A stretch of 64,000 nucleotides of DNA, from NCBI GenBank assembly GCA_030696695.1, contig JAUYRP010000034.1, positions 620,001 to 684,000 on the forward strand. The letters run 5' to 3'. The stretch is from Methylophilus sp. Its GTDB lineage: Bacteria; Pseudomonadota; Gammaproteobacteria; Burkholderiales; Methylophilaceae. This document shows, piece by piece, positions 4,511-45,736 of the stretch. Below the pieces are notes generated by a model. It did not search any database and was not told the origin of the DNA. It saw nothing but the letters and a program-made list of their open reading frames with translations. Within the stretch, counting starts at the first letter, position 1, and each line of letters opens with the position of its first letter. Both the position numbers and the translations under genes were made by a program.

Positions 4511-4523
4511 AGGAAAAAATCCG
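4511..4523. promoter_or_regulatory. operator-like dyad AGGAA-AAA-ATCCG
   Basis: This is a weaker copy of the locus-wide GGGAA-N3-TTCCC motif; it matches the site at 45724-45736 in 11 of 13 bases. It lies between the divergent protease gene and the exported-protein gene, whose paralogue at 45.2 kb has the better copy in its promoter region. Confidence 0.4.
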
Positions 4524-4615
4524 CGCGCTTATTTCAAATAATCATGACGTGATATGGGGGGACGTACCCTATGATATTTCTTCAATCATTCATCAATGCA
4601 ACATGGGGGATATCA

Positions 4616-5080
4616 ATGATTAAGTATGTGCTTGCAATATTATTAAGCTTGCGTGTGATGACGCTACATGCCATGCCAGAAGACACCACAAATACGCATC
4701 AAGACCAGCCACCTGGTTTGATTACTTTTCCGCAGTTTTCGATTATTGGTAAATGGAATTATCAGCTACCCAATTCTAGCTGTGTTGAGACCTATGAGTT
4801 TTCAAGCGATGGTAACTTGAGAGCATCCAGCGCAGAACAAATCACGGATAGCATTTATTTTATTTCCGACCAACACAGTGAGTTTGCATTTTATAAATTA
4901 GAGCATCAAGTGGTGCGAGCTAATGGGGAGAAGGACTGCGATGGTGAAGTTTCACAGTCTGGGACGAGTGCTATGCATTATGTGCGTTTTGATGAAACTG
5001 GAAATAGCTTGGTCATGTGTAAAGATGAATCTGCCTACTTAGAACAATGCTTTGGCCCACTTTATCGAAGTGAGCTATAG
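4616..5080 (+). CDS. exported protein with SCVE/KDC/CxGP cysteine pattern, unknown function
   Basis: The start at 4616 is chosen because GGGGGA lies about 7 bases upstream and a clean signal peptide follows (MIKYVLAILLSLRVMTLHA); an ATG at 4571 would add 15 residues. The mature part, about 135 residues, has IIGKWNY, SCVETYEF, FYK, NGEKDC, GNSLVMC and CFGPLYR. The same order (GTWEW, SCVEIYIF, FYK, NGGKDC, GNQYVSC, CVGPFKR) is present in the protein at 45211-45642, so the two are paralogues with four conserved cysteines. The GxW start suggests a small lipocalin-like beta barrel, which is inference. No function is known to me. Confidence 0.7.
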   Translation: MIKYVLAILLSLRVMTLHAMPEDTTNTHQDQPPGLITFPQFSIIGKWNYQLPNSSCVETYEFSSDGNLRASSAEQITDSIYFISDQHSEFAFYKLEHQVVRANGEKDCDGEVSQSGTSAMHYVRFDETGNSLVMCKDESAYLEQCFGPLYRSEL

Positions 5081-5091
5081 GCTCCCCAACG

Positions 5092-5448
5092 TCAGTTAGG
5101 TAGTTTTTTTACGCTATGTATTGTCCAGTGTTGTTTGCCAGATACAGTGTTAGTACAACCTAGTGGAATCAACTCATTGTGATGGTTGAAAGTATGCTTG
5201 GTATGATCCGCTGTTTGCACATCCATAAACCAGCGGTCTACCCACACTTCAACGGATACACCTTGTTGACTGTTGCTAAGGGACATCATGCTCCCGTCTT
5301 TCAACGCACAGTCCGAATCTTCAGTTTCTATTAATTGAATATACGAGAAATCATCTGCGCCATTGGTCTCTGCCCAAGCGAGTGTTGAATGACCAAGCCA
5401 CAATAGGGCAAGTAGGCTGGTTAAATAAGATAGATAGCTGGGTTTCAT
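5092..5448 (-). CDS. small exported protein, unknown
   Basis: This protein has 118 residues with a signal peptide ending LAWA before residue 27. The mature part is about 92 residues with two cysteines (DCAL and LGCTN). I recognise no family. The start codon overlaps the stop of the lipoprotein gene before it (ATGA), so the two are translationally coupled. It is the last gene of a leftward run that begins with the two-component pair TCS1. Confidence 0.6.
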   Translation of the reverse strand: MKPSYLSYLTSLLALLWLGHSTLAWAETNGADDFSYIQLIETEDSDCALKDGSMMSLSNSQQGVSVEVWVDRWFMDVQTADHTKHTFNHHNELIPLGCTNTVSGKQHWTIHSVKKLPN

Positions 5449-5993
5449 GGTTGGCTTTTATTGGCGATTGAAAGTGACTGCATTTTTTTAATCGCTTGCG
5501 CATGTTGATGTTGGTGTTGCCTTAAATTGATATAAAACTGGCAATAGTCTCCAAAGTTGCCCACCAAGTGCGACTTTCTGACGGTTGTCATGCCCTCTAG
5601 TAATGCCAGCAACGTCACCTGAATATTAAACTTTTCCAGCAGATCTCGTGTTTGCACCACCCTGTTGGCAATAATTCGCTTATCTTCTTTAAATTGTAGG
5701 GATAAGTAATCAAGATGTTGTTCAAACTGCTCAGCCAGCACACTAGGCACGGTGTCATAAACCACGGCTTTGTTATCTTGAATGGCCAACCATTTGGCTG
5801 CGATTTTATTGTCCTGTGGTGCCAGAAAAGTAGTGGAATATAGCGTTTCAATGTCGATTTCATCTGGATTAATCTGCACTATTTGATGCGTATTATCCAT
5901 GTTAGCCATATCTGTATCCGTTTCATTTTTCTGGCAGCCGAGTAGCAAAATCATGCAAACAATCAGGGGGAATAGATTGACGCGCTTCATCAC
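5445..5993 (-). CDS. lipoprotein, unknown function
   Basis: This 182-residue protein has a lipoprotein signal: LLLGC at about residues 16-20 with Gln-Lys-Asn following. The mature protein is mostly helical with an acidic N-terminal part (NPDEIDIETLY) and a His/Gln-rich C-terminal stretch (RQHQHQHAQA) that could bind metal or be a simple-sequence linker. I recognise no domain. It overlaps the next gene by four bases and belongs to the leftward cluster of exported proteins behind RR1. Confidence 0.62.
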   Translation of the reverse strand: MMKRVNLFPLIVCMILLLGCQKNETDTDMANMDNTHQIVQINPDEIDIETLYSTTFLAPQDNKIAAKWLAIQDNKAVVYDTVPSVLAEQFEQHLDYLSLQFKEDKRIIANRVVQTRDLLEKFNIQVTLLALLEGMTTVRKSHLVGNFGDYCQFYINLRQHQHQHAQAIKKMQSLSIANKSQP

Positions 5994-6681: not shown

Positions 6682-6689
6682 GATTTCAA

Positions 6690-7094: not shown

Positions 7095-7469
7095 TTAGAA
7101 CGCGAAGGAGAAGTTGACACATTTATCATTGGCAAATGTGAGTTCAATCAGTTTGTAGGTTTTTTTGTCGTTGAATTTTACAATCCTGCTGTAGTACCAC
7201 ATTTCTACTGCGTCTTTTTTCAAACGAGTGTCACCCGCCTTTTCAGTATATTGATCTGCGCTTTCGGGGCGGGTAGCCATTGCCTTTTTGTCTGGGTTAC
7301 CTAATTTTCTTTGCACTTCACTACGAGATTTCCCATCAAACGCATCGATAAATTCCTGCTCCGAATAGATAACCTTTTCGATAGATACTATTTGCTTGGC
7401 ATGTGTAATTGTGGACAGGCTGATGATGAATAAGCCAATAAAAATGCATACAGCGCGTGAAATAGACAT
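7095..7469 (-). CDS. exported BamE/OmlA-like small protein
   Basis: This 124-residue protein has a signal peptide ending THAK (about residue 24). The mature part has GKSRSEVQRKLGNPDK followed by a Tyr-rich segment (MWYYSRIVKFNDKKTYKLIELTF). This pattern of a short helix with LGxPD, then two to three beta strands, is that of the BamE/SmpA-OmlA fold. There is no lipobox, so it is probably a soluble periplasmic member. It is the first gene of the exported-protein run and sits 84 bp behind RR1, with two perfect palindromes in that gap. Confidence 0.65.
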   Translation of the reverse strand: MSISRAVCIFIGLFIISLSTITHAKQIVSIEKVIYSEQEFIDAFDGKSRSEVQRKLGNPDKKAMATRPESADQYTEKAGDTRLKKDAVEMWYYSRIVKFNDKKTYKLIELTFANDKCVNFSFAF

Positions 7470-7533: not shown

Positions 7534-7548
7534 AGTGAATGATTCACT
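7534..7548. promoter_or_regulatory. palindrome AGTGAAT-G-ATTCACT, GTGAA-type operator-like site
   Basis: A perfect 15-bp palindrome directly behind the RR1 stop codon and upstream of the exported-protein cluster. Its GTGAA-N3-TTCAC core is the symmetric form of the GTGAA half-site seen at 9210 and 30042 and fits the locus-wide GKGAA-N3-TTCMC pattern. Confidence 0.45.
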
Positions 7549-7553: not shown

Positions 7554-8213
7554 CTATGCCAAAGGTTCCCGTTTCCCTACTACGCCATGAAGAATTGCCA
7601 AGTGCACAAGATTGGCTGTAGTTTGCACATCTAATTTTTGTTTAATTTGCGTTTGGATATTGGCTACCGTTTTATAAGAGATATTCAGACTGTTGGATAT
7701 CTGGCTTAAAGAGTTGCCATCCACAATTTGTCTGAATACTTCAAACTCTCTAGCCGTCAGTTTTTCCAAAGGACGTTTGTTGTCATTGACATGATCGATG
7801 GCTAAATTTTGCGCAAGTTTTTGGCCGATATATCTTTGCCCATTCATAATCTTGTTGACTGCATCCAACAGCGTTTGCGCATCATCAGTTTTAATCACAT
7901 AGCCTTTTGCCCCTGCTTGGATGGCGCGCGTTGCGTAAATACTGTCTTCATGCATGCTGTAGATTAAGATTTTGGCGTTTTTGTCCCGTAGCAATATTCT
8001 GTTGAGTGCTTCTAAACCGCCTATGCCTGCCATGTCTAGATCAATAATGGCTAAATTGGGCTGGTGTTTTTGCCATAATAATATGGCCTCTTCGCCAGAG
8101 CCGCCTTCTGCTACCACGCTATAGCCCCATTGTTGCAACAGGCTCTTGAGCCCTTGCCTGACGACGACATGATCATCAATCAGCAGAATTGTTTTATTGG
8201 TTTGGTAGTTCAT
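7554..8213 (-). CDS. NarL/FixJ-type response regulator, TCS1
   Basis: This 219-residue protein has a receiver domain (residues 8-125; acidic pair at 13-14, phospho-acceptor Asp58 in AIIDLDM, Lys in GYVIKT) and a LuxR-type HTH (about 150-212; LTAREFEVF, recognition helix YKTVANIQTQIKQKL). Its start overlaps the sensor kinase stop by 4 bp. The HTH is close to those of RR2 and RR3 in this window (all share EFEVF and KT[VI]AN). Standing divergent from mxaF, it is a strong candidate regulator of methanol dehydrogenase, comparable in role to MxaB described in gammaproteobacterial methanotrophs; this is inference from context. Confidence 0.92.
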   Translation of the reverse strand: MNYQTNKTILLIDDHVVVRQGLKSLLQQWGYSVVAEGGSGEEAILLWQKHQPNLAIIDLDMAGIGGLEALNRILLRDKNAKILIYSMHEDSIYATRAIQAGAKGYVIKTDDAQTLLDAVNKIMNGQRYIGQKLAQNLAIDHVNDNKRPLEKLTAREFEVFRQIVDGNSLSQISNSLNISYKTVANIQTQIKQKLDVQTTANLVHLAILHGVVGKREPLA

Positions 8214-9172
8214 GGTGTCAATGTACCTTCATGATGTTTGAAATGCTGGGTAGGGATCAACACTTGTAAGGTTGTCCCTTGCGCGATGACACTGTGGATA
8301 TTGATTTCGCCTTGCAGGGCATGTATACGCTCACGCATGCCAATCAAGCCAAAGCCAAATTTTTTTGTACTTTTCTGAATGCCAATGCCATTGTCACGAA
8401 TCAGCAGTGAGATGGCAGCTTTTGCCTGATCAAACTTTAAAACGATATTGATTTGGCTGGCGTGGGCATGTTTTGAGATATTGGTTAACGCCTCCTGCAC
8501 AACCCGATAAATAGTAATGTTGGTTTTTTCACTCAATGATTGAATTGCATCATCAATCTCAATCTCGGCTTTAATTTTAGGGTTATACGTCATCCACTCC
8601 TGCACGACCGCTTTTACAGCGGCCACTATGCCTTGGCTATCCAATGTGGAGGGCCTTAAACGTCTAATCAGCTTTCTAGATATATTTCTGGTCATTCTGC
8701 AATTGTTAGAAATACGTTTGGCTAACAGTGCGATATTTTCATCTTGGTAACTGACCAGCGTCGCAATATCTAAACTAATGCCTGTCAAGAATTGACCAAT
8801 ATCATCATGCAGTTCTCTCGCCAACTCTAAGCGTTCACGCTCTTGTACTTCTAATACATGTTGCGTTAACAACTTATTTTCTGCGAGCAGCACTGCATTG
8901 TCTTTTTCCGCCAATTCTTTTAATGCAATGGTCTCTCTTAACTCCGCCATTCTATTTTTAGTAAAGAGCGCCATGGATAAAGCGATGAAGAGGATGAGGT
9001 ACGGTAATTCATCGAGTTGAAACTCCTCATACTTCGCCAAACTGTCAGAGATCAGTTCTGCCAGGTTGATATACAGCACAAAGCCATACAGCAGGCTGAC
9101 GCAAAAAGTTAGGAAAATGACATCACGTTTTACAGGGCTTAATGCCTGCCAGAGTTTTGTAAATACTTTCAT
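8210..9172 (-). CDS. NarX-type sensor histidine kinase, TCS1
   Basis: A membrane sensor kinase of about 320 residues: two hydrophobic segments in the first 75 residues enclosing a short loop (LAELISDSLAKYEEFQLDELPY), a coiled-coil linker, a HisKA_3 domain with ELHDDIGQF carrying the phospho-accepting His (residue 127 counted from the GTG at 9187), and a HATPase domain with VVQEALTNISKHA, DNGIGI and GFGLIGMRER. The ATG at 9172 is preferred over the GTG at 9187. There is no large periplasmic sensor domain, so the signal is probably membrane-borne or cytoplasmic. Divergent from mxaF, with about 230 bp of shared promoter region. Confidence 0.9.
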   Translation of the reverse strand: MKVFTKLWQALSPVKRDVIFLTFCVSLLYGFVLYINLAELISDSLAKYEEFQLDELPYLILFIALSMALFTKNRMAELRETIALKELAEKDNAVLLAENKLLTQHVLEVQERERLELARELHDDIGQFLTGISLDIATLVSYQDENIALLAKRISNNCRMTRNISRKLIRRLRPSTLDSQGIVAAVKAVVQEWMTYNPKIKAEIEIDDAIQSLSEKTNITIYRVVQEALTNISKHAHASQINIVLKFDQAKAAISLLIRDNGIGIQKSTKKFGFGLIGMRERIHALQGEINIHSVIAQGTTLQVLIPTQHFKHHEGTLTP

Positions 9173-9209
9173 GGCCCATATTTTCACTTAAATGGGCATG
9201 CCGATGATA

Positions 9210-9222
9210 GTGAATCATTCCC
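9210..9222. promoter_or_regulatory. operator-like dyad GTGAA-TCA-TTCCC
   Basis: The first of two GKGAA-N3-TTCCC-type sites in the hk1/mxaF divergent promoter region. With the site at 9300-9312 it forms a pair in which ATTCCCGCT is inverted relative to AGCGGGAAT, 90 bp apart (start to start). Confidence 0.5.
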
Positions 9223-9253
9223 GCTCATGGGGAAAAGTAAAAAAACTAATTCC

Positions 9254-9268
9254 AATTTGTAACAAATT
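9254..9268. promoter_or_regulatory. palindrome AATTTGT-A-ACAAATT upstream of mxaF
   Basis: A perfect 15-bp palindrome midway between the two dyads. A related AAATTGTAAC lies about 45 bp before the xoxF start, so it may be a second binding element common to both dehydrogenase promoters. Confidence 0.35.
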
Positions 9269-9299
9269 ATGACGAGAGGGAACCTTTTATCCCTACAGC

Positions 9300-9312
9300 G
9301 GGAATCATTCAT
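9300..9312. promoter_or_regulatory. operator-like dyad GGGAA-TCA-TTCAT
   Basis: The second dyad in the mxaF promoter region, about 95 bp before the start codon. The left arm is perfect, the right arm keeps TTC only. A related but longer-spaced inverted pair, GGGA-N8-TCCC, lies just left at 9278-9293. Confidence 0.45.
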
Positions 9313-9405
9313 CTTAATTAATCGTGCCGACAGGCTCAATATTCGGTTGCGCCATTGCAGATGTAATGGTTGGTTTTTAATTTTAACCTTATAGAGGGGA
9401 CATTT

Positions 9406-11196
9406 ATGAATAAGCGCAAACTGATAGGAGTGGCCGTAGGGGGGCTGCTAACCTTGAGTGTAAGCCACGCTGTGTATGCAGATGCGGATTTAGATAAACG
9501 CGTACAAGATCCAAATCAATGGGCTACACAAACGGGTAATTACTTTAGTCAACATAACAGCACGTTAACGCAAATCAACAAAAATAATGTAAAAAATGTA
9601 AAAGCGGCTTGGTCATTTTCAACTGGTGTTTTACATGGTCACGAAGGCGCACCATTGGTCATTGGTGACATGATGTATGTGCACTCTGCTTTTCCAAACA
9701 ATACATACGCCATTAACTTAAATGATCCAGGCAAAATTGTTTGGTCACATAAGCCAAAACAAGATGCTTCAACCAAAGCTGTGATGTGTTGTGACATTGT
9801 CGACCGCGGTGTGGCTTACGGCGCTGGTCAAATTGTGAAAAAACAGGCCGATGGTCACTTGCTTGCATTAGATGCAAAAACAGGCAAAGAAAACTGGAAA
9901 ATTGAGTTGTGCGACCCTAAAGTGGGTATGACATTAACCCAAGCGCCGTATGTGGTTAAAGACACAGTATTAATTGGTTGCTCTGGTGCTGAGCTAGGTG
10001 TGCGTGGTGCTGTGAACGCGGTGGATTTAAAAACAGGTGAATTGAAATGGCGTGCGTTTGCAACGGGTTCTGATGAGTCTGTACGTTTAGCTAAAAACTT
10101 TAACGAAAAAAATCCGCACTATGGTCAATTTGGTTTAGGTACTAAAACTTGGGAAGGTGACGCTTGGAAAATCGGCGGTGGCACTAACTGGGGTTGGTAT
10201 GCCTATGATCCAAAATTAAATCTGTTCTACTACGGTTCTGGTAACCCAGCACCATGGAATGAAACGATGCGTCCAGGTGATAACAAATGGACCATGACGA
10301 TTTGGGCACGTGATGTTGATACAGGCATGGCTAAATGGGGATATCAAAAGACGCCACATGATGAGTGGGATTTTGCTGGTGTGAACCAAATGGTGCTGAC
10401 TGATCAGCCTGTGAAAGGCAAAGTAACACCGCTGTTAACGCATATTGACCGCAACGGCATTATGTACACGTTGAATCGTGATACTGGTGAATTGATTTTA
10501 GCGGACAAAGTAGACCCAGCGGTTAACGTGTTCAAAAAAGTTGATTTGAAATCAGGCTTGCCAGTACGTGATCCAGAGTTCTCAACACGTATGGACCACA
10601 AAGGTACCAATATTTGTCCATCTGCGATGGGCTTCCACAACCAAGGGGTTGACTCATACGATCCTGAAAGCCGTACTTTATATGCTGGTTTAAACCACAT
10701 TTGTATGGACTGGGAGCCGTTTATGCTGCCATACCGTGCAGGTCAGTTCTTCGTGGGTGCAACACTCGCGATGTACCCTGGCCCAAATGGCCCAACCAAG
10801 AAAGAAATGGGTCAAGTACGTGCATTTGATACGGTCACAGGTAAAGTGAAATGGACCAAATGGGAGAAATTCGCGGCTTGGGGAGGTACTTTATACACCA
10901 AAGGCGGTTTGGTTTGGTACAACACATTAGATGGTCATATCAAAGCATTAGATAAGAACAATGGTAATGAGTTGTGGAAATTCAAAATGCCATCAGGTGG
11001 TATCGGTTCACCCATGACGTACTCATTCAAAGGTAAACAATACGTCGGTAGCATGTACGGCGTAGGTGGTTGGCCTGGTGTAGGTTTGGTGTTCGACTTA
11101 ACTGACCCAAGTGCTGGTTTAGGAGCAGTGGGTGCGTTTAAAGAGCTCCAACATCACACCAATATGGGTGGCGGTTTAATGGTGTTCAGTCTGTAA
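9406..11196 (+). CDS. mxaF: methanol dehydrogenase large subunit, Ca-dependent type
   Basis: This periplasmic PQQ enzyme oxidises methanol to formaldehyde. The 596-residue protein has a signal peptide (ending VYADA) and the eight-bladed quinoprotein propeller with Trp-docking repeats. The adjacent Cys128-Cys129 (VMCCDIV) forms the disulfide ring over PQQ. The catalytic Asp322 is in DEWDFAGVN; the residue two positions later is Ala324, as in calcium MxaF, not the extra Asp of lanthanide XoxF. The start at 9406 is set by GAGGGG upstream; 9370 is too early. It heads the mxaFJGIRSACKLD operon and is divergent from TCS1. Confidence 0.97.
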
Positions 11197-13224: not shown

Positions 13225-13308
13225 CACGTTGGTATTACCGCCACATACATAACAAGATTGATACACAAGTAATTGAGTCGTACACGCTTACCCACATTAA
13301 AGATTCCT

Positions 13309-14334
13309 ATGGCACATTTAATCAATGCAGATTTAGACTTATTTCGTCAGCAAGTAACGGTATTTGAAAACGCAATCAATGAGGTGGTGCTAGGCCTTAA
13401 CCGTGAAGTCCGGTTATTGACCATTGCGATTTTATCGCGTGGCCATGTGCTGCTTGAGGGGGATGTAGGCGTTGGCAAAACAACATTGCTTAGAGCAGCG
13501 GCAAAACTCATGGGTGGGCAATATCAACGCATTGAAGGCGCGGTGGATTTGATGCCGTCCGATTTTTTATACCATGCGTATATTGACCAACATGGACAGC
13601 CCTCGGTTGCCCCAGGCCCATTACTGCAACACGGTGAAGATTTAGCCGTGTTCTTTTTTAATGAGATCAATCGCGCAAGACCACAAGCCCACTCCATGCT
13701 GCTACGTTTAATGGCAGAGCGCTCAGCGCATGCGTTTAATCGCGAATATCATTTTCCACACCTCACTGTATTTGCGGATAGAAACAGATTAGAGCGTGAA
13801 GAAACATTTGAATTGCCTGCGGCGGCACGGGATCGTTTTTTTATGGAAATTAACATCAGCGCCCCCAATGATTTTGAATTACAGCGCGCACTAATGTTTG
13901 ATTTTAAGTTTCTGCAAGTAGATAAAATGATCGCTGGCCTGCCAGAAGCGGTCGTGCCTTATACCGCACTGAACGATTTATATGAGGCCATACAGAATCA
14001 TGTGCGGGCAGAGCCTGTATTCCAAGACTATGCCGTCAATCTATGGCGTGCTTTAAAAGACCCAGTTGCGGCGGGGATTTCATTGCCAGATGTGGATATG
14101 AGTCGATTGATTGCAGGTGGTGCCAGCCCTCGCGGTGTTGCCATGCTGATGACCGCCGCTCGTACCCGCGCTTGGCTGGAGCAGCGTGATTACCTCACAC
14201 CAGATGATATTCGCAGCGTGTTTCACCCAGTGATGATGCATCGCGTGTTTTTTACACCAGCTTATGAGTTAAGGCGTGCCGACATTGCCCCTAGATTATT
14301 AGACGCGGTGTTGTCACGTGTCTCGGCGCCATAG
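13309..14334 (+). CDS. mxaR: MoxR-family AAA+ ATPase of methanol dehydrogenase assembly
   Basis: This 341-residue MoxR-type ATPase has Walker A GDVGVGKTT near residue 50, Walker B VFFFNEINRARP, sensor and Arg-finger regions (LPAAARDRFFM) and a C-terminal lid helical domain. MoxR ATPases work with VWA-domain partners as chaperones that load cofactors; here the partners are mxaS, mxaC and mxaL. The ATG at 13309 is preferred over a TTG at 13273 because homology starts here. It is 58% or so like the second copy at 39029 by inspection of shared blocks; that value is not computed. Confidence 0.93.
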   Translation: MAHLINADLDLFRQQVTVFENAINEVVLGLNREVRLLTIAILSRGHVLLEGDVGVGKTTLLRAAAKLMGGQYQRIEGAVDLMPSDFLYHAYIDQHGQPSVAPGPLLQHGEDLAVFFFNEINRARPQAHSMLLRLMAERSAHAFNREYHFPHLTVFADRNRLEREETFELPAAARDRFFMEINISAPNDFELQRALMFDFKFLQVDKMIAGLPEAVVPYTALNDLYEAIQNHVRAEPVFQDYAVNLWRALKDPVAAGISLPDVDMSRLIAGGASPRGVAMLMTAARTRAWLEQRDYLTPDDIRSVFHPVMMHRVFFTPAYELRRADIAPRLLDAVLSRVSAP

Positions 14335-14358
14335 CGCTTCGCTTTAAGGCGGATATTG

Positions 14359-15213
14359 ATGGAAGCGTTTCACTACCATATCGCATGGCGTAGTCACGGC
14401 GGGCGTGTTGGCGGACATCCCACCAAAATAACGGGAGGGCATGCCGATTTCAATGCACACGTACCCCTCATGCAGAACTTTAATCCCAAGCGTATAGATC
14501 TGCGGGCGTCGTTAAAAACTGTGCCTAAACAGTTGATGGTACGTACTTTTCACGAACGTTATGCCATACAGGCGTATGCAGTGGTGGACATGTCTACCTC
14601 TATGAACTTTGTCGGGCAGCAACATAAATGGCAATTATCCACCGAGATTGTACAAGCCATTGCTTGGTCCGCTATCTGTAATGGCGACACGTTTGGTTGT
14701 GTTGCTGCAGACGATTCCTTGCGTATGGATGTGTATGAACCGAGCACGCACCGTGCTGCTGTGGTGGATGATATTGCAAGCAAAATGCGCAGTGTGCAAT
14801 TTACGCAGCCTGTGGGTATTAAGGCATTGCCTAGGGTGAACGAGCTATTGCCAACGCGTCGTTCGTTGGTTTTTTTAATCTCCGATTTTTATATGGGTGA
14901 GGCTTTATTAACCCAAAGCTTACAAAATCTCACTGCGCATGATGTGGTGCCGATCGTGATTTGGGACAGTGCTGAAATCAATGAATTGCCTGATTGGGGC
15001 TGGATGCGCGTCAACGACATGGAAGGCAACGGCACACGTAGTGTTTTTTTACGACCTGCACTCAAAAAGGCCATTCAACATGCTTATCACGCCCGGCAAC
15101 AGAGGCTCACGCAACTATTCACTAGTGCAGGCATTAGGTCACCTTTTTTTGTTTTAAATCAGTTTCATAGCGAAGCGATGACCCAGCATATGTTAGAGGA
15201 CAGTGGATGTTAG
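14359..15213 (+). CDS. mxaS: MxaS, DUF58/VWA-like assembly protein
   Basis: This 284-residue soluble protein of the DUF58 type has an Arg/Asp-rich N-terminal block (KRIDLRASLKT), then a VWA-like domain with VDMSTSMNF as MIDAS-like motif and LVFLISDFYMGEA. It is required with MxaR, A, C, K and L for active MxaF, probably for calcium insertion, in Methylobacterium. The start codon ATG 14359 is one codon into the longer TTG option. Its end overlaps mxaA by 7 bases, indicating translational coupling. Confidence 0.88.
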   Translation: MEAFHYHIAWRSHGGRVGGHPTKITGGHADFNAHVPLMQNFNPKRIDLRASLKTVPKQLMVRTFHERYAIQAYAVVDMSTSMNFVGQQHKWQLSTEIVQAIAWSAICNGDTFGCVAADDSLRMDVYEPSTHRAAVVDDIASKMRSVQFTQPVGIKALPRVNELLPTRRSLVFLISDFYMGEALLTQSLQNLTAHDVVPIVIWDSAEINELPDWGWMRVNDMEGNGTRSVFLRPALKKAIQHAYHARQQRLTQLFTSAGIRSPFFVLNQFHSEAMTQHMLEDSGC

Positions 15214-30054: not shown

Positions 30055-30177
30055 ATCGTTCAACGGGAGCTATTCTCAATCTACAAAGAGTACATGGGCA
30101 TATAGTGGCGTCGAGGTGCAATTGTAATAAATTGTAACTTAACCCCTGAATAAATTTTATAACTAAGGAGAGTGTGA

Positions 30178-32149: not shown

Positions 32150-32291
32150 ATTGGAATGTGCATGATTGATTGTGCGTGCATATTGCAATAAAAGTAGCTA
32201 ACTGTTGTTAAATTGTTATTAAAGTTAGCTAAATGTAAGGATTAAAGGTTTGTTTATGGTGAATACATTTGATGTGAATGGAGTTTTTTCT

Positions 32292-33963: not shown

Positions 33964-33999
33964 AGGAAATTATCCCAGCGATAGTTGGGATAATTTCTG
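33964..33999. promoter_or_regulatory. double operator-like inverted repeat upstream of xoxG
   Basis: AGGAA-ATT-ATCCC (33964-33976) and GGGAT-AAT-TTCTG (33987-33999) are two copies of the motif; together they make a perfect 12-bp inverted repeat (GAAATTATCCCA/TGGGATAATTTC, 8-base spacer). No T-run follows, so it is more likely a double operator or an mRNA hairpin than a terminator. Confidence 0.5.
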
Positions 34000-36894: not shown

Positions 36895-36907
36895 GGGAAT
36901 AAGTCCC
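36895..36907. promoter_or_regulatory. operator-like dyad GGGAA-TAA-GTCCC
   Basis: An exact GGGA-N5-TCCC site just behind the second MxaD-like gene. A terminator lies between it and the next gene, so its target may be the possible small RNA at 36908-37054. Confidence 0.5.
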
Positions 36908-37054
36908 ACTCATTTCTGTGAGTTTTGGAGTATCAATCACGGGAGAAACGTTTGATACTAATGGTGCTCAATCGAGATCAAAACAATATCGAAATTAAAA
37001 CAATAAAGTTCGCAAACACTAAAACTAGGCATGCTATCCGCCTAGTTTTTTTTT
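36908..37054 (+). ncRNA. possible small RNA between operator-like site and terminator
   Basis: The stretch begins at an operator-like dyad, holds a hairpin with 8-bp perfect arms AGTATCAA/TTGATACT (36929-36959) exposing GGGAG in the loop, and ends in a strong terminator (37021-37054). It has no open frame of note. Alternatively it is just the 3' UTR of the MxaD-like gene. No RNA family is recognised. Confidence 0.3.
37021..37054 (+). terminator. Rho-independent terminator
   Basis: AAAACTAGGC and GCCTAGTTTT form a 10-bp stem with a 9-base loop and a long T-run. It separates the upstream xox genes from the second propeller gene. Confidence 0.9.
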
Positions 37055-38948: not shown

Positions 38949-38961
38949 GGGATATTTTCCC
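38949..38961. promoter_or_regulatory. operator-like dyad GGGAT-ATT-TTCCC before the second mxaR
   Basis: An exact GGGA-N5-TCCC site about 70 bp before the mxaR2 start and behind the SoxYZ-like gene, suggesting that the second assembly-gene set has its own regulated promoter. Confidence 0.5.
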
Positions 38962-39028: not shown

Positions 39029-40048
39029 ATGAATTCAGATCAAGTGTTAATCGATTGGCGCAACCGTGCGCTGATGCTGGAAAAAGAACTCAATCAAATC
39101 ATCTTAGGGTTATCTCCAGCGATTCGCCTGCTATTGATTGCCATGTTCTCTAAAGGGCATGTGTTACTGGAAGGCAATGTTGGGGTGGGCAAAACAACCT
39201 TGCTCAGAGCCGCAGCAAGAGGGCTGGGTGGTGGTTACCAGCGTGTGGAAGGCACGATAGATTTAATGCCGCAAGATTTGATTTATCACACCTACATTGA
39301 TACTGAAGGCAAACCTAAAGTGGAAGCCGGTCCGATCGTGGCACAGGGCGAAAACTTATCAGTATTCTTCTTTAATGAGATCAACCGCGCCAGACCGCAA
39401 GTGCATTCCTTGTTGTTGCGTGTGATGGCGGAGCGCAGTGTGAGTGCATTTAATCAAGAGCATTATTTTCCGCATTTACAAGTATTTGCAGACAGAAATG
39501 CAGTAGAGCGTGATGAAACATTCGAGTTGCCAGGCGCAGCACGTGATCGCTTTTTAATGGAAATAGAAATTGCACCATCGAATGACAGTGAGATACACAA
39601 AGCATTGACATTTGATGCGCGCTTTCACGATACAGATACGCTGATTAGTGGGGTGAGTGCTGGATTGTTGGACTTTAGAGCGCTCACCGCATTTGCCAGT
39701 CAACTGCAGCAGCGCGTCACAGCAAACGCAGCGGTGCAAGACTATGTTGAACATTTGCGCAAAGCCACTCACCGACCTCAGGATTATGGTGTTGTGTTGC
39801 CTGAAGTGGACATGGATGATTTGATGCTGGCAGGTATGGGGCCTAGAGGCTGCAGTATGCTGGTGCGCGCGGCCAAAGTGTCAGCTTGGCTAGATGGGCG
39901 TTTAAATTTAACACCAGAAGACATTGCAGCCGTATTTCATCCAGTGGTTGCGCATCGTGTATTTTTCTCGCCTATTTACGAGTTACAAAGAAACTGGCTA
40001 GCCAAAGCCTATACGCAAGCCATTTTAAAGCAAGTGCCCACGGCATAA
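39029..40048 (+). CDS. second MxaR-like MoxR ATPase
   Basis: The 339-residue AAA+ ATPase has Walker A GNVGVGKTT near residue 48, Walker B VFFFNEINRARPQ and LPGAARDRFLM. It aligns end to end with MxaR at 13309 (shared YQR[IV]EG, DLMP, HP in the lid VFHPV, RVFF). It heads a full second set in the order R-S-A-C-K-L. Probably loads a metal, perhaps the lanthanide, or PQQ into XoxF4; this is inference from placement. Confidence 0.9.
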   Translation: MNSDQVLIDWRNRALMLEKELNQIILGLSPAIRLLLIAMFSKGHVLLEGNVGVGKTTLLRAAARGLGGGYQRVEGTIDLMPQDLIYHTYIDTEGKPKVEAGPIVAQGENLSVFFFNEINRARPQVHSLLLRVMAERSVSAFNQEHYFPHLQVFADRNAVERDETFELPGAARDRFLMEIEIAPSNDSEIHKALTFDARFHDTDTLISGVSAGLLDFRALTAFASQLQQRVTANAAVQDYVEHLRKATHRPQDYGVVLPEVDMDDLMLAGMGPRGCSMLVRAAKVSAWLDGRLNLTPEDIAAVFHPVVAHRVFFSPIYELQRNWLAKAYTQAILKQVPTA

Positions 40049-40062
40049 TTTAAGCCAATCAT

Positions 40063-40914
40063 ATGAAGCAACAGTGGATTGACTACCGCATTCAATGGAA
40101 GCCAACGGGGCATCAATCCGGTGCAATGCGTGGATTATCTGCGGGTATTGGCGATCATCTGCGTGCTCTGGCGCTTTTGCGAGATTATCCTGACCCGAGA
40201 CGCCTCGATTTAAGAGCAAGTTTGCGCGACCCATTTGAGCGCTTGTTTGTGAGAGATACCTATTTAAACACCGCACTTAAATTGATTGTGCTGGTGGATG
40301 CCACCGCCTCTATGGGCTATGTGGGGGCAGTGAATCGCTGGCAAGTCGCGCAAGAAATAGCTGCGCAATTGGCATTGTCTGCTTATCGTAGTGGCGATGC
40401 CTTTGGCCTATATGTTGCCAATCAAGCATTGATACGAGAAGGCACATTACCCCCTAGGCTTAATCGTTCAGCCTGGTTGTGGATTCAGCAACACTTGCAT
40501 CGCGTCAAACCGCAAGGTAATCGAATGGATGGCTTAATTAAGGTGACATCGCAATTGCCTAGAAAGCGCAGTTTGGTTTTTTTGGTGTCTGATTTTAGAT
40601 GGTCGGAAAGCGACACCAACATGATGTTTAAAAAACTCAATCATCATGACGTGATTCCTATCGTGTTAGAAGATCCGTTTGAGGTATCGCAAGCGCCTAA
40701 ACAAGGCATGGCTATTTTGCAAGATGCGGAAACTGGGCAATCCAAATTTGTATGGATGCGTGCAGGGCTCATCCAATCGCTACAAAATAAAAGATTGCAG
40801 CATACGCAAATGCTGCATCAACTGAGTCGTCGATACGGCTATAAGCCATTTTTGGTACACGGAAGTTTTAATCCAATGGCCTTGACGCATTACTTCATGG
40901 AGCGCCAGACATGA
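40063..40914 (+). CDS. second MxaS-like DUF58/VWA protein
   Basis: This 283-residue soluble protein has PRRLDLRASLRDPFE, a MIDAS-like VDATASMGY and LVFLVSDFRWSES, parallel to MxaS (KRIDLRASLKT, VDMSTSMNF, LVFLISDFYMGEA). It sits 14 bp behind the second ATPase gene and overlaps the second mxaA by four bases (ATGA). Confidence 0.87.
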   Translation: MKQQWIDYRIQWKPTGHQSGAMRGLSAGIGDHLRALALLRDYPDPRRLDLRASLRDPFERLFVRDTYLNTALKLIVLVDATASMGYVGAVNRWQVAQEIAAQLALSAYRSGDAFGLYVANQALIREGTLPPRLNRSAWLWIQQHLHRVKPQGNRMDGLIKVTSQLPRKRSLVFLVSDFRWSESDTNMMFKKLNHHDVIPIVLEDPFEVSQAPKQGMAILQDAETGQSKFVWMRAGLIQSLQNKRLQHTQMLHQLSRRYGYKPFLVHGSFNPMALTHYFMERQT

Positions 40915-41843
40915 AGTGCTTGTATTACTTTATTCTGATGTTATGTTTGCCAGTTACCGTACTAGGGAGTGACGCTCCACCGATTAATGTGGAAGTGGCA
41001 ATGCGCGATAGTGGTTATCGCTTGGGCGATTTTATTCATCAGACAATCACCCTCACTTTACCAAAGCACACCACGCTAGATGAAGAAAGTTTACCGCTCA
41101 CAGGTTACGTCAAACCTTGGTTAGATTTATCAACGGCGACCTATACCCAGCAAAATGAAACCATCAAGTTGTATCTGACTTGGCAGATTTTTGCTACCGT
41201 GGAGATTGCACAAACGCTTAAAACGCCTGCACTGGTGTTAAAAACGAAAGAAAAACCTGTGCAAGAGATTATGATTCCGACGCAGCCCTTTTACTATTCC
41301 CCAGTTTTGCCTTATCCCTTGGCAGAAACAAAAAGACACGCGGATTTGTTGCCTATCCCATTCAATGAGCAGACACCATTATTGGGCTTGATATTGTTTA
41401 GCACGATAGGCGTGATATTGATGATGTATTGGATGTGGTTAAAAGACTGGCTACCTTGGCCAAAAAATCCCGGCCCGATTGCAACATTGGCAAAGTCAAT
41501 GCGCCACAAAACGGCACAGACTATGCAAGCCAAAGATTTACAAGCCATATTGCAAGCCTTAAGTGCAAGCGCTGGCGAAAGTTTGTTTCCATCCAGCCTG
41601 CATCGTCTATTCAACACAGCACCATTTTTGCGACCTTTCCAAGCCGAGATTGAACAATGCTTTGCAGTTGCATGGCGCACTTTATATGACGAACATCCAT
41701 TTAGTATTCGTCAGAGCGCAACTGTATTGACATCAGCGCAACCGATTCACATAGATTGGATTGCGCAGGCTGCAGTGGCGGAACGCTTATATTTAAGAAA
41801 CGCTGCACCTACGTCAGCGAAGCATGCGCAAACGTCGAAATGA
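40911..41843 (+). CDS. second MxaA-like membrane protein
   Basis: The 310-residue protein has a signal peptide ending VLGSD, a periplasmic beta domain with RDSGYRLGDFIHQTITL (cf. RELGYHLGDIALQTVTV in MxaA; shared core GYxLGD), one transmembrane helix (LLGLILFSTIGVILMMYWMW in part) and a helical cytoplasmic tail. The overlap at both ends (ATGA) couples it to its neighbours. Confidence 0.85.
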   Translation: MKCLYYFILMLCLPVTVLGSDAPPINVEVAMRDSGYRLGDFIHQTITLTLPKHTTLDEESLPLTGYVKPWLDLSTATYTQQNETIKLYLTWQIFATVEIAQTLKTPALVLKTKEKPVQEIMIPTQPFYYSPVLPYPLAETKRHADLLPIPFNEQTPLLGLILFSTIGVILMMYWMWLKDWLPWPKNPGPIATLAKSMRHKTAQTMQAKDLQAILQALSASAGESLFPSSLHRLFNTAPFLRPFQAEIEQCFAVAWRTLYDEHPFSIRQSATVLTSAQPIHIDWIAQAAVAERLYLRNAAPTSAKHAQTSK

Positions 41844-42907
41844 GTCATTTACATTTTTTAAAACCAGAGTTGTTATGGTTATTGCCTTTGGCGCTATTGC
41901 CGCTACTCTCGCATGGTGTTAAACAATTTAGCTACCCAAGTTTGGCGGATTGGCCAAAAGATTTAGCTTCGCTCAATGTGCGCTGGGCAATTCGTTTATT
42001 AGCTGCATTGGTCATCTTCAGTCTTGTCATTGCCGCAGCGGCACCGTTTACAGAGGGCGGCACAGAAAGTCGTGTGGGGCTAGGCGCGGAAATTGTGGTG
42101 GTGTTAGACCGTAGCGGCAGTATGTCAGAAGGATTAAAGGGGCGTGATTACAATCGGCAGTCGGCAGAGGCGGGCGAGTCAGATACGCATTTTTTGAGCA
42201 AGATTGAAGCAGCACGTGCAGTATTGCTAAAGTTCATGCAACAGCGACCAGCCGATACGTTTGGCATGGTGGTGTTCAATGCGTCACCCATCAGCGTAGC
42301 ACCGTTGTCCTCAGACCGTGCATTGGCAGAAGCTGCGTTATTAAGTGCGCAAAGCCAAAGTACGGGCTTTACTGCACTTGGCCGCGCCTTAGCGCTTGCC
42401 CTTGATCATTTTGAAGACCGTCCCTACACCGCGTCTAGATTGATTTTGTTGGTATCGGACGGCGATGCTGTGATTGAAGGGGAAGATCAAGAAGTATTAA
42501 AACAAGCTTTTATTCGTCAGCGTGCTCAGCTCATGTGGATATATGTAAGGGGGGAACGGGAGCAAAGTATATTAGACACGGTCATCGCAGGCGATAATGA
42601 AATTATCACAGCACAAGATACCGCCTACGCCACGCAGCAGCAAACGGCCTCTATGCATCAAGTATTTTCACAATTGGGGATGCCGTATCAAGCGTTTGAG
42701 GTTGATAGCGAGCAAGGTCTCAATAACGCAATTCAAGCTGTAAGCAACGCCACCAATAAACCAACGCGTTACGAATACCGTCTGCCAAGAAAACACTACG
42801 CACATTATTTTTATGGAATAGCGATTGTACTCATGGGTTTGCTGTTCTGGATTAAGCAACAAGAAATAGTTGTTTGGCAACCCTCATCCTTCAGCAAGTC
42901 TAGGTGA
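41840..42907 (+). CDS. second MxaC-like VWA membrane protein
   Basis: Starting at ATG 41840, inside the stop of the preceding gene, the 355-residue protein has two N-terminal membrane helices, a VWA domain with complete MIDAS DRSGS (Asp90), TGFTALGRA and LLVSDGDAVI, and a C-terminal helix (YFYGIAIVLMGLLFWI). An earlier TTG at 41756 lies within the mxaA-like frame and is rejected. Confidence 0.88.
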   Translation: MSHLHFLKPELLWLLPLALLPLLSHGVKQFSYPSLADWPKDLASLNVRWAIRLLAALVIFSLVIAAAAPFTEGGTESRVGLGAEIVVVLDRSGSMSEGLKGRDYNRQSAEAGESDTHFLSKIEAARAVLLKFMQQRPADTFGMVVFNASPISVAPLSSDRALAEAALLSAQSQSTGFTALGRALALALDHFEDRPYTASRLILLVSDGDAVIEGEDQEVLKQAFIRQRAQLMWIYVRGEREQSILDTVIAGDNEIITAQDTAYATQQQTASMHQVFSQLGMPYQAFEVDSEQGLNNAIQAVSNATNKPTRYEYRLPRKHYAHYFYGIAIVLMGLLFWIKQQEIVVWQPSSFSKSR

Positions 42908-42911
42908 CCTC

Positions 42912-43511
42912 ATGCATATCACTCTCAATCAACAACGATATTGGATTAAGTATTCGCAGGCCTTGGTGGTCAGTGCAAGTTTGCTTAGCTTTTTAGGGGC
43001 TATATTTTGTGCCCATGCATGGTGGCAAGCGCGCCAACTGAATATTGCCTATCAAAATAACACCCTCATCAAACAGTCTATTGCACTGCATGAGGCACAA
43101 AAAGCCTACAGCATTGGTTATCTGCAAGCCAAAAATGGTCAACCTAAACTTGCCATGCAATCATTGATGATTGCAGAAGCTTCAAAAGATCTAGATATTA
43201 GGGCGCGCGCTAAATTTGCACTGGGTAATTTGTATTTTGATAGTGCGATTGCCGCTACGAATATCGCCAATGGCGGTGCCCACCAGCAGGCAGTGGCGCA
43301 TATTGAATTAGCAAGAGAAGCCTATAAAGGTGCGCTGCGCATCAAGCCAGATATGCAAGTAGCAAGGTTTAATTTGGAGTTGTTAGATAGATTGAGCCCA
43401 GAAAAGCGTACGCAGGGTTGGGAGGCTGAGACCGATGGCGTGACGTTACAGCCATTTAAGCGTAATGGCACTGCGATGATGCGAGATAACAAACGCAGGG
43501 GCTTGCCATAA
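42912..43511 (+). CDS. second MxaK-like protein
   Basis: Starting at ATG 42912 behind AGGTGA, the 199-residue protein has a membrane anchor (LVVSASLLSFLGAIFCAHAW in part) and a TPR-like helical part (AREAYKGALRIKPDMQVARFNLELLDRL), matching the last TPR of MxaK (GYRNALSLDPHWLEAKYNMELAL). Its tail ends KRRGLP. The stop overlaps the mxaL-like start (TAATG). Confidence 0.83.
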   Translation: MHITLNQQRYWIKYSQALVVSASLLSFLGAIFCAHAWWQARQLNIAYQNNTLIKQSIALHEAQKAYSIGYLQAKNGQPKLAMQSLMIAEASKDLDIRARAKFALGNLYFDSAIAATNIANGGAHQQAVAHIELAREAYKGALRIKPDMQVARFNLELLDRLSPEKRTQGWEAETDGVTLQPFKRNGTAMMRDNKRRGLP

Positions 43512-44515
43512 TGGGTTTGACCATCCAACCACTCAAGGATTGGTCATGGAGAAAAGCCTTGGTGCATATTCGTCGCTGGCTACATCAATCTTGGCGAAAT
43601 GGCAGCCTGTGTTTGATTATCGCTGCCATCATATTATTACCTGTTTGGTTTACACCCACCACACAAATGCAAAGTCTGGTGCAAGACACTTTATTTGTCA
43701 TTGATATCAGCGAGAGTATGAATGTGCAAGATGTTGATTATCCACGTCCACATACTTCGCGTCTGCACTTGGCAAAAGAAGTGGTGAGGGAGTCAATGGC
43801 TAGTTTGCCTTGTGGCTCTAGAGTATCCATTGCGTTATTTGCTGGGGATGAGTCGATTGTGCTATTTGAGCCATTGGAAGTTTGCCGACATTTCTCCGCG
43901 ATTGAGCAAGTCGTCGCCAGACTGCAAACCAAAATGCGCTGGGTTGGCGATTCTTGGGTGGTCAGAGCGTTAGTAATGAGCATTAAAGAAGCGCATAAGC
44001 GGCAGTTAAACGTGGTGATGGTGACCGATGGTGATGAAATGCCACATCATAGTGCTCCGCGACTCACTGATTTGCTAAGTCTCAAGGACAAAGCAAAAGG
44101 TTTGCTAGTAGGGGTAGGGGGCCAAGCATTGCAACCCGTGCCTAAGCTTAATGATCAGCAACAGATTGTTGGCTATTGGACACCAGAGGAAGCGGTGATG
44201 GAAGGTAACCATCCTAATTTATTAGCCTATGTTAAAGCGCTTCAACCTGGAGAGCGTGCTGCTGCAGGCGCGTTAGATGAAGTGGGTGAGCATTTGTCTG
44301 CACTGAACAAACCCTTGCTAAAAGCTGTAGCAGAGGCGAGTAAATTTGACTTTGTACATATTCAACAGCCACAGCAAGCAGTAAGCGCACTGAATAATGC
44401 TGACCTACAGAAAACTTCACTTGCAGAGCGTGATGCCAGTTGGCTATTTGCGCTGGCGAGCATCTTACTGTTTTTAATAGCTTGGTTTTGGCATCGTATT
44501 TTTTCGCAGGCTTAA
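43511..44515 (+). CDS. second MxaL-like VWA membrane protein
   Basis: The 334-residue protein has a membrane helix (LCLIIAAIILLPVWF), a VWA domain with the MIDAS motif DISES and VVMVTDGDEMPHHS, and a C-terminal helix (WLFALASILLFLIAWFW). It parallels MxaL (DITQS, LAFITDGHQAP, GVGG...PVPKL block). Its end converges with the minus-strand gene at 44512, overlapping by four bases. Confidence 0.88.
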   Translation: MGLTIQPLKDWSWRKALVHIRRWLHQSWRNGSLCLIIAAIILLPVWFTPTTQMQSLVQDTLFVIDISESMNVQDVDYPRPHTSRLHLAKEVVRESMASLPCGSRVSIALFAGDESIVLFEPLEVCRHFSAIEQVVARLQTKMRWVGDSWVVRALVMSIKEAHKRQLNVVMVTDGDEMPHHSAPRLTDLLSLKDKAKGLLVGVGGQALQPVPKLNDQQQIVGYWTPEEAVMEGNHPNLLAYVKALQPGERAAAGALDEVGEHLSALNKPLLKAVAEASKFDFVHIQQPQQAVSALNNADLQKTSLAERDASWLFALASILLFLIAWFWHRIFSQA

Positions 44516-45189
44516 TCGTTTTGCACTCGTAGACGTTCAACCAACACAATCTCACAGGCACCATCGCCACTATCACTGCGCACTCGTGATGTTGCCCAAA
44601 TAAAACCGTCTTCATCTTTAATATCGACTAAATAGCCTACCAACTCAACTACATCACCTTTTTTTACGTTGGCTAACGCCTTGGCTATCTCTTCGGTATT
44701 TGGCACTAAGTGCAAGTTTGTACTGTTAAGTTCCAACTCTTTGCGTGGAATGGGAAACTCGCTGACATTCCAGTAATAAAAACGATTGTTTTGCCTGACA
44801 TTGATCTCTTTAATGATATTAGGATCAGACATTGCTCCCCAGCCTACCACCATGTCGTATGGCGCAATATCGGCACGCTCATCCCCAATGTAGTGGCGCT
44901 TAGACAGTACTAATCCAGTAATCTTAAACTCATCAGAATAGCCAATTTCATAGTTATTTCTTTTATGCCAAACGTACTCAGTTAAAGCTTTTTGATATGG
45001 GATGTCATGGACTCTAATGCCTGTGTGCATAGCAGAAAAGGTAGCATAGTGGCTTTGGTTTTTGCGTGCGTCAATTTGTAAACTAAAATCAACAGACTCT
45101 GGATTGGGCGCGGCTGGCTTTGTATCAAGCGTGTCTGCATGTACTTTGGTGATGCAAGCGAGTACCAGTGGTATGCAACGATATTTCAA
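44512..45189 (-). CDS. exported protein, unknown function
   Basis: This 225-residue protein has a short signal peptide ending KVHAD and no further cysteine until the C-terminal end (DGACE). Segments such as YDMVVGWGAMSDPNII, FYYWNVSEFPIPRKELELNSTNLHLVPN (key part YYWNVSEFPIP) and VKKGDVVELVGYLVDI define a widespread bacterial family I know only as hypothetical; the last segment reads like an OB-fold strand pair. It stands 21 bp behind the paralogous exported protein and is probably co-transcribed with it. Confidence 0.7.
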   Translation of the reverse strand: MKYRCIPLVLACITKVHADTLDTKPAAPNPESVDFSLQIDARKNQSHYATFSAMHTGIRVHDIPYQKALTEYVWHKRNNYEIGYSDEFKITGLVLSKRHYIGDERADIAPYDMVVGWGAMSDPNIIKEINVRQNNRFYYWNVSEFPIPRKELELNSTNLHLVPNTEEIAKALANVKKGDVVELVGYLVDIKDEDGFIWATSRVRSDSGDGACEIVLVERLRVQND

Positions 45190-45210
45190 TGCATGGCTCC
45201 TACGATATCA

Positions 45211-45642
45211 CTATTGAATACGCTTAAAAGGGCCTACGCAATCATTAATCTCTTCTGTGTCGCAAGAGACATATTGATTTCCAGAAGGATGAAACATCAC
45301 AAATTTGTTGTACTCATCCCCGGTGTTGTCCTCGTAGCTTTCGCCACAATCTTTACCACCGTTGTCTTTCACAATAGTCAGCTTTACCTTGTAAAATCCA
45401 TTGTCGGTGGGTTTGTCAGCAATTTCATAGCGTGCGGTAGACGTTTCTTCTCCGCTAGTGATATGGCCCGATTGCTCAATGCCAAAGATATATATTTCCA
45501 CACAACTGTTTTTGATGTTGACCCATTCCCAAGTGCCTTGCAGTGGATTGGTATTAGCCTCGTTAGCAAGCGTGCTGCTTAAGCTTAAGCACATAGCAAC
45601 GAACACTTTGAAACAAAATTGTAAGCCGCGTAATAGCATCAT
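45211..45642 (-). CDS. exported protein, paralogue of the one at 4616-5080
   Basis: This 143-residue protein has a signal peptide ending TLANE. The mature part has LQGTWEW, SCVEIYIF, FYKVKL, NGGKDCGE, GNQYVSC and CVGPFKRIQ, in the same order as the protein at 4616 (IGKWNY, SCVETYEF, FYKLEH, NGEKDCDG, GNSLVMC, CFGPLYR). The GTW start with a small cysteine-containing beta domain recalls lipocalin-like stress proteins. Function unknown. A strong dyad lies about 80 bp before its start. Confidence 0.72.
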   Translation of the reverse strand: MMLLRGLQFCFKVFVAMCLSLSSTLANEANTNPLQGTWEWVNIKNSCVEIYIFGIEQSGHITSGEETSTARYEIADKPTDNGFYKVKLTIVKDNGGKDCGESYEDNTGDEYNKFVMFHPSGNQYVSCDTEEINDCVGPFKRIQ

Positions 45643-45723
45643 ATTGTCGTCCGTGTCTAATCGTCATTGAAGATGCTATTAATTAATTATCAATGTAGAT
45701 AAATCAAGCACTTTCGAAAATCA

Positions 45724-45736
45724 GGGAAAAAATCCC
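45724..45736. promoter_or_regulatory. operator-like dyad GGGAA-AAA-ATCCC
   Basis: Symmetric as AGGGA-N5-TCCCT (45723-45737). It lies in the region between the minus-strand exported-protein gene and a possible plus-strand small frame at 45775, and is the right-most copy of the motif seen. Confidence 0.5.

Follow-up and report, generated by a model that had tools for sequence, protein, structure and literature searches.

A conserved inverted repeat as probable operator of a methanol dehydrogenase regulon in Methylophilus and its relatives

The choice between the methanol dehydrogenases (MDHs) MxaF (calcium) and XoxF (lanthanide) is known genetically, and a defined operator would make its cis side testable with few reporters. 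In Methylomicrobium buryatense, as described in passages of PMC5018670, the kinase MxaY and the regulator MxaB control mxaF and xoxF, and MxaY raises the mxaB transcript. According to passages of PMC6115532, MxaY has a LapD/MoxY domain. The latter passages also describe PedS2/PedR2 of Pseudomonas putida, under which two pyrroloquinoline quinone (PQQ) dehydrogenases are controlled oppositely in response to lanthanides. For the Pseudomonas CrbS/CrbR system, passages of PMC5715377 describe a LuxR-family regulator whose ACTU motif is needed for activation; this imperfect inverted repeat lies at -52 to -36, and was found by promoter comparison and confirmed with reporters. Here we analyse a 13-bp inverted repeat, or dyad, with the core RGGAA-N3-TTCCY, in a 64-kb stretch (hereafter, the window) of a Methylophilus genome of 2.98 Mb.

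The locus in the window comprises mxaF and the genes that follow it, three HisKA_3 kinases, three regulators with receiver and GerE (LuxR) domains encoded beside the dyads, a TonB receptor and xoxF. It also comprises an XoxJ-like ankyrin-bearing protein, a cytochrome c, a quinoprotein-associated SoxYZ protein, a second MoxR-like set and a PQQ-associated beta-propeller protein whose match lies below the NCBIfam cut-off of its family. The names mxaF, xoxF, xoxJ, xoxG and mxaR2 were assigned from domains, gene order and the labels of an initial annotation. The inverted repeat stands before genes that include the regulator operon itself, and we consider it probable, on sequence evidence, that it is the operator of an MDH regulon under paralogous NarL/FixJ-type regulators. 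RR2, with its kinase hk2, would be the main one, and RR1 and RR3 may read variants of the dyad.

Distribution of the dyad in the window and among related genomes

Exact GGGA-N5-TCCC sites lie at 22483, 25812, 36895, 38949 and 45724, as the initial annotation had reported, all within 23 kb; 0.39 were expected and none of 100 shuffles reached five. The annotation's expectation of about one site per 64 kb was too high, the computed value being 0.25–0.39. Among 2816 four-base palindromes with spacers of 0–10, the pattern ranked second over the 64 kb and first over the first 46 kb, its enrichment in the 64 kb having a p of 7e-6, or about 0.02 once corrected for the 2816 tests. The whole genome holds 11 exact sites against 14 for a reversed control, and 41 matches to GGGAA-N3-TTCCC with at most one mismatch against 32. 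Because five of the 11 and eight of the 41 fall in the window, which is 2% of the genome, the signal is local to the MDH locus and not genome-wide. Equal frequency elsewhere was what the initial annotation had named as telling against the dyad; the dyad is indeed not commoner than the reversed control genome-wide, yet it is concentrated in the window.

Sixty-two sites from other genomes, the window's own genome and its nearest relative (G012) being excluded, were made into a matrix, which gave its ten highest ranks in the window to ten of the annotation's 13 sites (in order, 22483, 25812, 30042, 45724, 38949, 29941, 36895, 9210, 33964 and 7535). Lower down came 10862, inside mxaF (11th), 9300 (12th), 25676 (15th) and 4511 (21st). 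Of these, 4511 was dropped, being weak and having no counterpart with at most two mismatches before exp1 in G009 or G012. The earlier impression that no site lies between the genes right of 46 kb also held, the sole entry there among the 25 best positions being 48632, inside an open reading frame (ORF). Since the training sites were picked by likeness to the annotation's consensus, the matrix result means that the window's sites fit a family pattern, and is not an independent discovery.

The highest-ranking site, GGGAATTTTTCCC at 22483–22495 (+; strands are given in brackets), is the single dyad of the hk2-rr2 promoter. These genes encode a histidine kinase with a HAMP domain and a sub-threshold LapD_MoxY_N match (22551–23918, +; ATG at 22551) and RR2, a NarL/LuxR-type response regulator and the proposed main binder (23921–24562, +). 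Stretches around hk2 were taken from 14 of the 21 other genus genomes, that is, from all save G013, G014, G015, G018, G019, G020 and G021, among which G015 and G021 have an hk2-like match. The dyad stands 61–68 bp before the hk2 start and is exact in 13 of the 15 genus genomes, the window's own among them; G011 has one mismatch and G006 two. In the alignment of these promoters it forms a conserved island amid poorly alignable DNA.

Relatives of RR2 (E 1e-60 or better) were found in 79 of 120 family genomes, and 40 further hk2 loci were compared: 39 from other genera, out of 65 genomes with an RR2 match, plus the second copy that G016 has. If one mismatch is allowed, the dyad precedes hk2 in 12 of the 13 genus genomes other than the window's own and G012 (which are also excluded from the genus counts with this tolerance below) and in 14 of the 40 further loci, numbers which none of 319 control half-sites reached. 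Relaxed to RGGA-N5-TCCY, it occurs within 150 bp of hk2 in 34 of the 40, against a mean of 0.19 and a maximum of 6 for 335 controls. Before mxaF, GTGAA-N3-TTCCC and GGGAAT-N2-TTCAT were present in all 13 genus genomes with mxaF in the fetched stretch (G001 and G016, which have none there, are left out), so that both GTGAATCATTCCC, between hk1 and mxaF (9210–9222, no strand assigned), and GGGAATCATTCAT, before mxaF (9300–9312, +), have 13 counterparts in 13. With at most one mismatch, the mxaF dyad was found in 11 of 11 genus genomes and five of six further loci, the tonB dyad in six of nine further loci, and that of the beta-propeller gene in five of 11 genus genomes (a count reached by one of the 319 controls) and six of seven further loci; in the further loci, these three counts exceed all 319 controls. 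The control test covered neither xoxG nor exp2, for which there were too few orthologs.

Two variations were noted in passing. Upstream of mxaF (9210–9406), two genus lineages place a conserved ATTCGG at distances from the second dyad that are 21 bp, or two helical turns, apart; and Methylophilus sp. 14 (L142/L205) has a second hk2-rr2 pair, with an exact dyad of its own, beside an mxaR2 set. Close XoxF in nine of 80 family genomes, and XoxF on plasmids (482 records, all below 60% identity), were set aside and not used for conclusions.

Six loci carry an RR2 57–65% identical to that of the window; they are labelled Methylophaga (L202, L204), Piscirickettsiaceae (L207, L208, L209) and Proteobacteria (L203), and we take them to be gammaproteobacterial. 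AGGA-N5-TCCT stands 66–115 bp before hk2 in five of these six Methylophaga-like loci. Before its xoxF, L204 has AGGAATAAATCCT and, 23 bp on, AGGAACTACTCTC, the same tandem including CTCAATC at the end. No dyad was found at the second, more distant kinase-regulator pairs of L203 and L204. All six of these metagenome-assembled genomes (MAGs) contain hk2-rr2, with sel1 in L202–L204 and xoxF in L203 and L204; the pair, with its related operator, is possibly an exchanged cassette there. The initial annotation had made its proposal depend on conservation between related strains, and the sites are kept across strains, across genera and in the Methylophaga-like genomes.

Promoter geometry

Two layouts recur. 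In one, a single dyad lies 21–24 bp before a -10-like box (hk2, hk3); in the other, two dyads lie 23 bp apart, the nearer, which is often degenerate, being at the position of the single dyad (xoxF, tonB, xoxG, yncE2). In the sets used for -10 offsets, second dyads and half-sites, near-identical sites were counted once. At hk2 promoters the best -10 offset is 23 bp past the dyad, where a score above 3 is reached by 15 of 24 sites; 11 representatives average 4.18 of six matches there (one base of slack), against 2.75 averaged over offsets; in the window, TATAAT lies 21 bp past the dyad (22517–22522, +). For xoxF, tonB, yncE2, mxaR2, yncE1, soxYZ, exp2 and pkc2, the best offset is 46 bp past the upstream dyad, A (14 of 28 sites). 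A second dyad at +23 bp is matched at 4.44 of ten bases on average in 25 non-hk2 genus-by-gene representatives, against a maximum of 3.52 in 1000 flank shuffles, which did not preserve relatedness; it is weak (1–2 of ten) at mxaR2 in G125, exp2 in G000 and hk1 in G009. The offset of 46 bp from dyad A and the second dyad at +23 together put dyad B at the place of the single hk2 dyad.

Eight aligned xoxF promoters from three genera share the order dyad, 10 bp, RGGA-dyad, about 23 bp, TATAGT. The window's copy consists of GTGAATTTTTCCC (dyad A, 30042–30054, +), GGGAGCTATTCTC (dyad B, 23 bp past A, 30065–30077, +) and a TATAGT at 30101–30106 (+) that is present in all eight aligned genomes. Before the TonB receptor, the exact dyad A, GGGATTTATTCCC (25812–25824, +), is followed 23 bp on by dyad B, GTGAATTATTTAT (25835–25847, +), and preceded by a weaker site, AGGATTATTTCCT (25676–25688, no strand assigned), which reads GGGATTATTTCCT in G012. 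Dyads A and B before xoxG are AGGAAATTATCCC (33964–33976, +) and GGGATAATTTCTG (33987–33999, +). The beta-propeller gene at 37085 is preceded by the exact dyad A GGGAATAAGTCCC (36895–36907, +) and a degenerate dyad B, GTGAGTTTTGGAG (36918–36930, +), with four of ten matches. Were the -10 box to start at -12, the near dyad would be centred at about -41 and the far one at about -64, which would place two dimers on one face of the DNA.

The dyad GGGAATTTTTCCT (29941–29953, -) would fall inside hk3 as listed (28959–30020). The corresponding frame of G012 is interrupted by a stop within this leader; the probable hk3 start is therefore the ATG at 29882, which gives a histidine kinase gene at 28959–29882 (-) and makes this site the dyad of the probable hk3-rr3 promoter. 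It stands 59 bp before that ATG with GATAGT 21 bp past the dyad, which is the geometry of hk2. With the start so corrected, a dyad lies close before all three kinase genes, the one for hk1 (histidine kinase, 8210–9187, -) being the site at 9210, 35 bp from the listed start. The gene assignments of the initial annotation were accordingly amended in two places, 29941 going to the hk3-rr3 promoter and 36895 to the beta-propeller gene.

The remaining sites are GGGATATTTTCCC (38949–38961, +; exact) before the MoxR-like gene mxaR2 at 39029, GGGATTTTTTCCC (45724–45736, -; exact) before a small gene at 45211–45642, and GTGAATCATTCAC (7535–7547, -) before a gene at 7095–7469; the last has counterparts in G009 and G012 and stands 23 bp from a degenerate dyad at 7558–7570. 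As to the genes themselves, 32250–33944 encodes an XoxJ-like binding-protein domain, weakly matched by SBP_bac_3, that is joined to a long tail of ankyrin repeats, and two related MoxR-type sets occur, one after mxaF (13273–18665) and the other after xoxF (39029–44515).

In the mechanism we propose, a phosphorylated regulator dimer would bind RGGAA-N3-TTCCY. At the hk2-rr2 operon, one dimer about 41 bp before the transcription start would sit beside RNA polymerase, giving class II activation and autoregulation. A second dimer would be added at xoxF, tonB, xoxG and the beta-propeller gene, on the same face of the DNA and 23 bp, roughly two helical turns, upstream of the first. The signal conveyed through RR2 binding and activation would be methanol, the availability of calcium versus lanthanides, or both.

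Candidate binders and rival readings

Three NarL/LuxR-type response regulators are encoded in the locus: RR1 (7554–8213, -), RR2 and RR3 (28321–28962, -), with RR2 and RR3 each 42% identical to RR1. They have in common KTxANxxTxxxQKL, which, by reference to the NarL family, we take to be the recognition helix; some relatives read KTVSN or KTAAN, and the residue following KTxAN is Y in RR2, I in RR1 and T in RR3. Among the matches listed, none of the three regulators or three kinases passed a curated NCBIfam cut-off. The relatives of RR2 with solved structures include RcsB and NarL. RcsB, BvgA and NarL are NarL-family proteins that bind short inverted repeats as dimers, in some cases with TTCC-like half-sites; the spacing and outer bases of their operators are unlike those of the dyad.

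Binding by NarL-type regulators, as suggested in the initial annotation, gains support from the sequence comparisons: hk2 is preceded by the exact dyad in 13 of 15 genus genomes, by its relaxed form in 34 of 40 further loci and by AGGA-N5-TCCT in five of six Methylophaga-like loci, at a position expected of such an activator. RR2 is favoured because its own promoter has the best site of the window, because the dyad follows RR2 relatives outside the family, and because of the excess of exact sites: GGGAAWWWTTCCC occurs 81 times against 20 for the control in the 79 genomes with an RR2 match, and 14 times against six in the 41 without, of which 21 were not named in the RR2 search and are taken as the rest of the same draw. 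Eight of those 14 are in G027 and G087.

The operator predicts regulon members elsewhere in the genome, such as MoxR-like and XoxF-like genes. Around exact sites outside the window, 39 loci were inspected (L151 and L154 among them fall within the stretches taken around hk2), and eight adjoin MDH or MoxR-like genes, as judged by eye from translated N-termini. Exact sites precede MoxR-like genes that are distant from hk2 or lie on a different contig (L152, L162, L166, L174, L179), a TonB receptor (L171) and a cytochrome c (L144), and stand by PQQ dehydrogenases on a contig other than that of hk2 (L175) and in a genome without RR2 at threshold (L155). A further site by a PQQ dehydrogenase (L192) lies some 22 kb away from rr2, within an ORF called on the opposite strand. 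Most of the other outside sites are unexplained, and 11 of 40 lie inside called ORFs. At L173, an exact dyad (site 2051) stands 70 bp before a PAS-containing gene that by eye resembles a chemotaxis receptor, and could connect methanol use with taxis.

Several observations weigh against an MDH operator read chiefly by RR2. Genome-wide, the dyad is no commoner than the reversed control, either in the window's own genome (11 against 14; 41 against 32) or summed over 22 genus genomes (274 against 270), and abundance was dropped as evidence. It is missing within 150 bp of hk2 in six of the 40 further loci (G032, G047, G049, G059, G093, G113), and AGGA-N5-TCCT is absent before hk2 in L208. Exact sites occur despite the absence of an RR2 match at threshold in G027 (five) and G087 (three). 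The counts for xoxF (two of five), mxaR2 (two of five) and yncE1 (none of six) in further loci, and for yncE1 in genus genomes (two of ten), are not clearly above controls, and all conservation counts concern related genomes and not independent events. Sites at mxaF, hk1 and hk3 show no clear -10 offset. Strict composites of dyad and TATANT in 120 genomes number 12 against six for the control at 22–24 bp and four against 11 at 45–47 bp, with no match in the window's own genome; such composites being uninformative, the -10 geometry is drawn from the aligned loci. Finally, the LapD_MoxY_N match of hk2, at 22.7 bits, is under the cut-off of 25.

The lack of genome-wide over-representation is also what chance or a composition artefact would lead one to expect, an explanation we take as refuted, and rate as having practically no likelihood, in view of the conservation statistics from control half-sites, flank shuffles and relaxed-pattern controls. 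The sites before genes distant from the hk2 cluster, and the exact sites in G027 and G087, would also fit a single unlinked regulator, such as a global regulator of methylotrophy, for which the kinase-regulator genes are merely targets. We consider this improbable, given that few sites are as well conserved as the one before hk2-rr2, which accompanies RR2 relatives into the Methylophaga-like genomes, and that the exact-site excess over control is about fourfold with RR2 and about twofold without. That the sites are instead repressor operators which shut off the MDH genes finds some encouragement in the hk1 dyads, 22–35 bp from the start codon; at hk2, hk3 and xoxF, the dyad centre is 28–30 bp before the -10-like box, the position of a class II activator, and the CrbR repeat at -52 to -36 in passages of PMC5715377 offers an activator precedent. 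There is perhaps a slim chance of such repression.

A division of labour among the three regulators is harder to dismiss. The mxaF site and those of the other kinase genes may be read by RR1 and RR3 rather than RR2, with GTGAA half-sites (mxaF, hk1, hk3, yncE1) and GGGAA half-sites (hk2, tonB, accessory genes) marking two partly separate regulons; we would give this somewhat less than an even chance, and since it refines the operator reading favouring RR2 and is not its opposite, the two overlap in probability. Among sites with at most one mismatch, the GTGAA half is present in ten of 11 mxaF, four of four hk1, two of two yncE1 and one of one hk3 sites (the xoxF/hk3 site GTGAATTTTTCCC, shared by the window and G012, being counted under hk3), as well as in one of two x7095 sites. 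It is absent from all 24 hk2, eight tonB, 11 yncE2 and four mxaR2 sites, giving none of 51 once exp2, xoxG and mxaS are included, and from the sole xoxF site of the set. The differing residue after KTxAN points the same way. Because the sites were limited to one mismatch and many come from orthologous promoters, the split is partly a matter of shared descent; and where xoxF lies beside hk2-rr2 in fetched stretches lacking hk3-rr3 (g7, g15), the tandem is kept with GGGA and not GTGA. From these sequences, we hypothesise that the regulators may differ in specificity by one base. More tentatively still, and with a rather low expectation of its being right as a whole, we suggest one dyad code for all three regulators: the second base of the half-site would sort RR2 targets from those of RR1 and RR3, a lone dyad would denote self-control, and a pair spaced by 23 bp would denote genes for MDH, metal receptors and cytochromes, with circuit and operator common to the Methylophilaceae and the Methylophaga-like bacteria.

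Relation to described systems

The locus resembles MxaY/MxaB, as portrayed in passages of PMC5018670, in having a histidine kinase and a response regulator by mxaF and xoxF; the LapD_MoxY_N domain is matched in hk2 at a level below the cut-off. In keeping with a circuit of this type, candidate regulatory sites stand before mxaF, xoxF and a regulator gene. The likeness is drawn from description, and those passages give no operator. MxaB is described there as an orphan regulator, whereas in the window three kinase-regulator pairs stand together in a single locus and share a dyad. The locus offers three paralogous regulators whose specificities are proposed to differ by one base. A link to lanthanides is suggested by gene content and by the analogy with MxaY (passages of PMC5018670), and the predicted co-regulation of the TonB receptor with XoxF makes it a candidate lanthanide importer. 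The sensor domain of PedS2 is said to differ from that of MxaY in passages of PMC6115532, a text that contains none of the words motif, binding site and palindrom.

No operator sequence for the choice between calcium and lanthanide MDHs was found in the literature searched, at the level of abstracts and passages and not of full texts, including PMC5018670, PMC6115532, PMC12997753, PMC5715377 and PMC3728764; a search for the exact dyad sequences returned no papers. Membership of ACTU was ruled out by eye, since the core RGGAA-N3-TTCCY differs from the examples printed in passages of PMC5715377 (e.g. TACTACCATCGTCGAAT), although the kind of site is the same; the CrbR regulon is, moreover, one of acetate use, and those passages mention no tandem. 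The operator, its regulon and the tandem geometry were thus not met in the abstracts and passages searched, while the kind of site is an ordinary one, and the dyad would work in the manner of a NarL/FixJ activator operator. Among regulatory circuits, MxaY/MxaB and PedS2/PedR2 come nearest, and the CrbR repeat of ACTU, as given in passages of PMC5715377, is the nearest proven case that we found, with another sequence.

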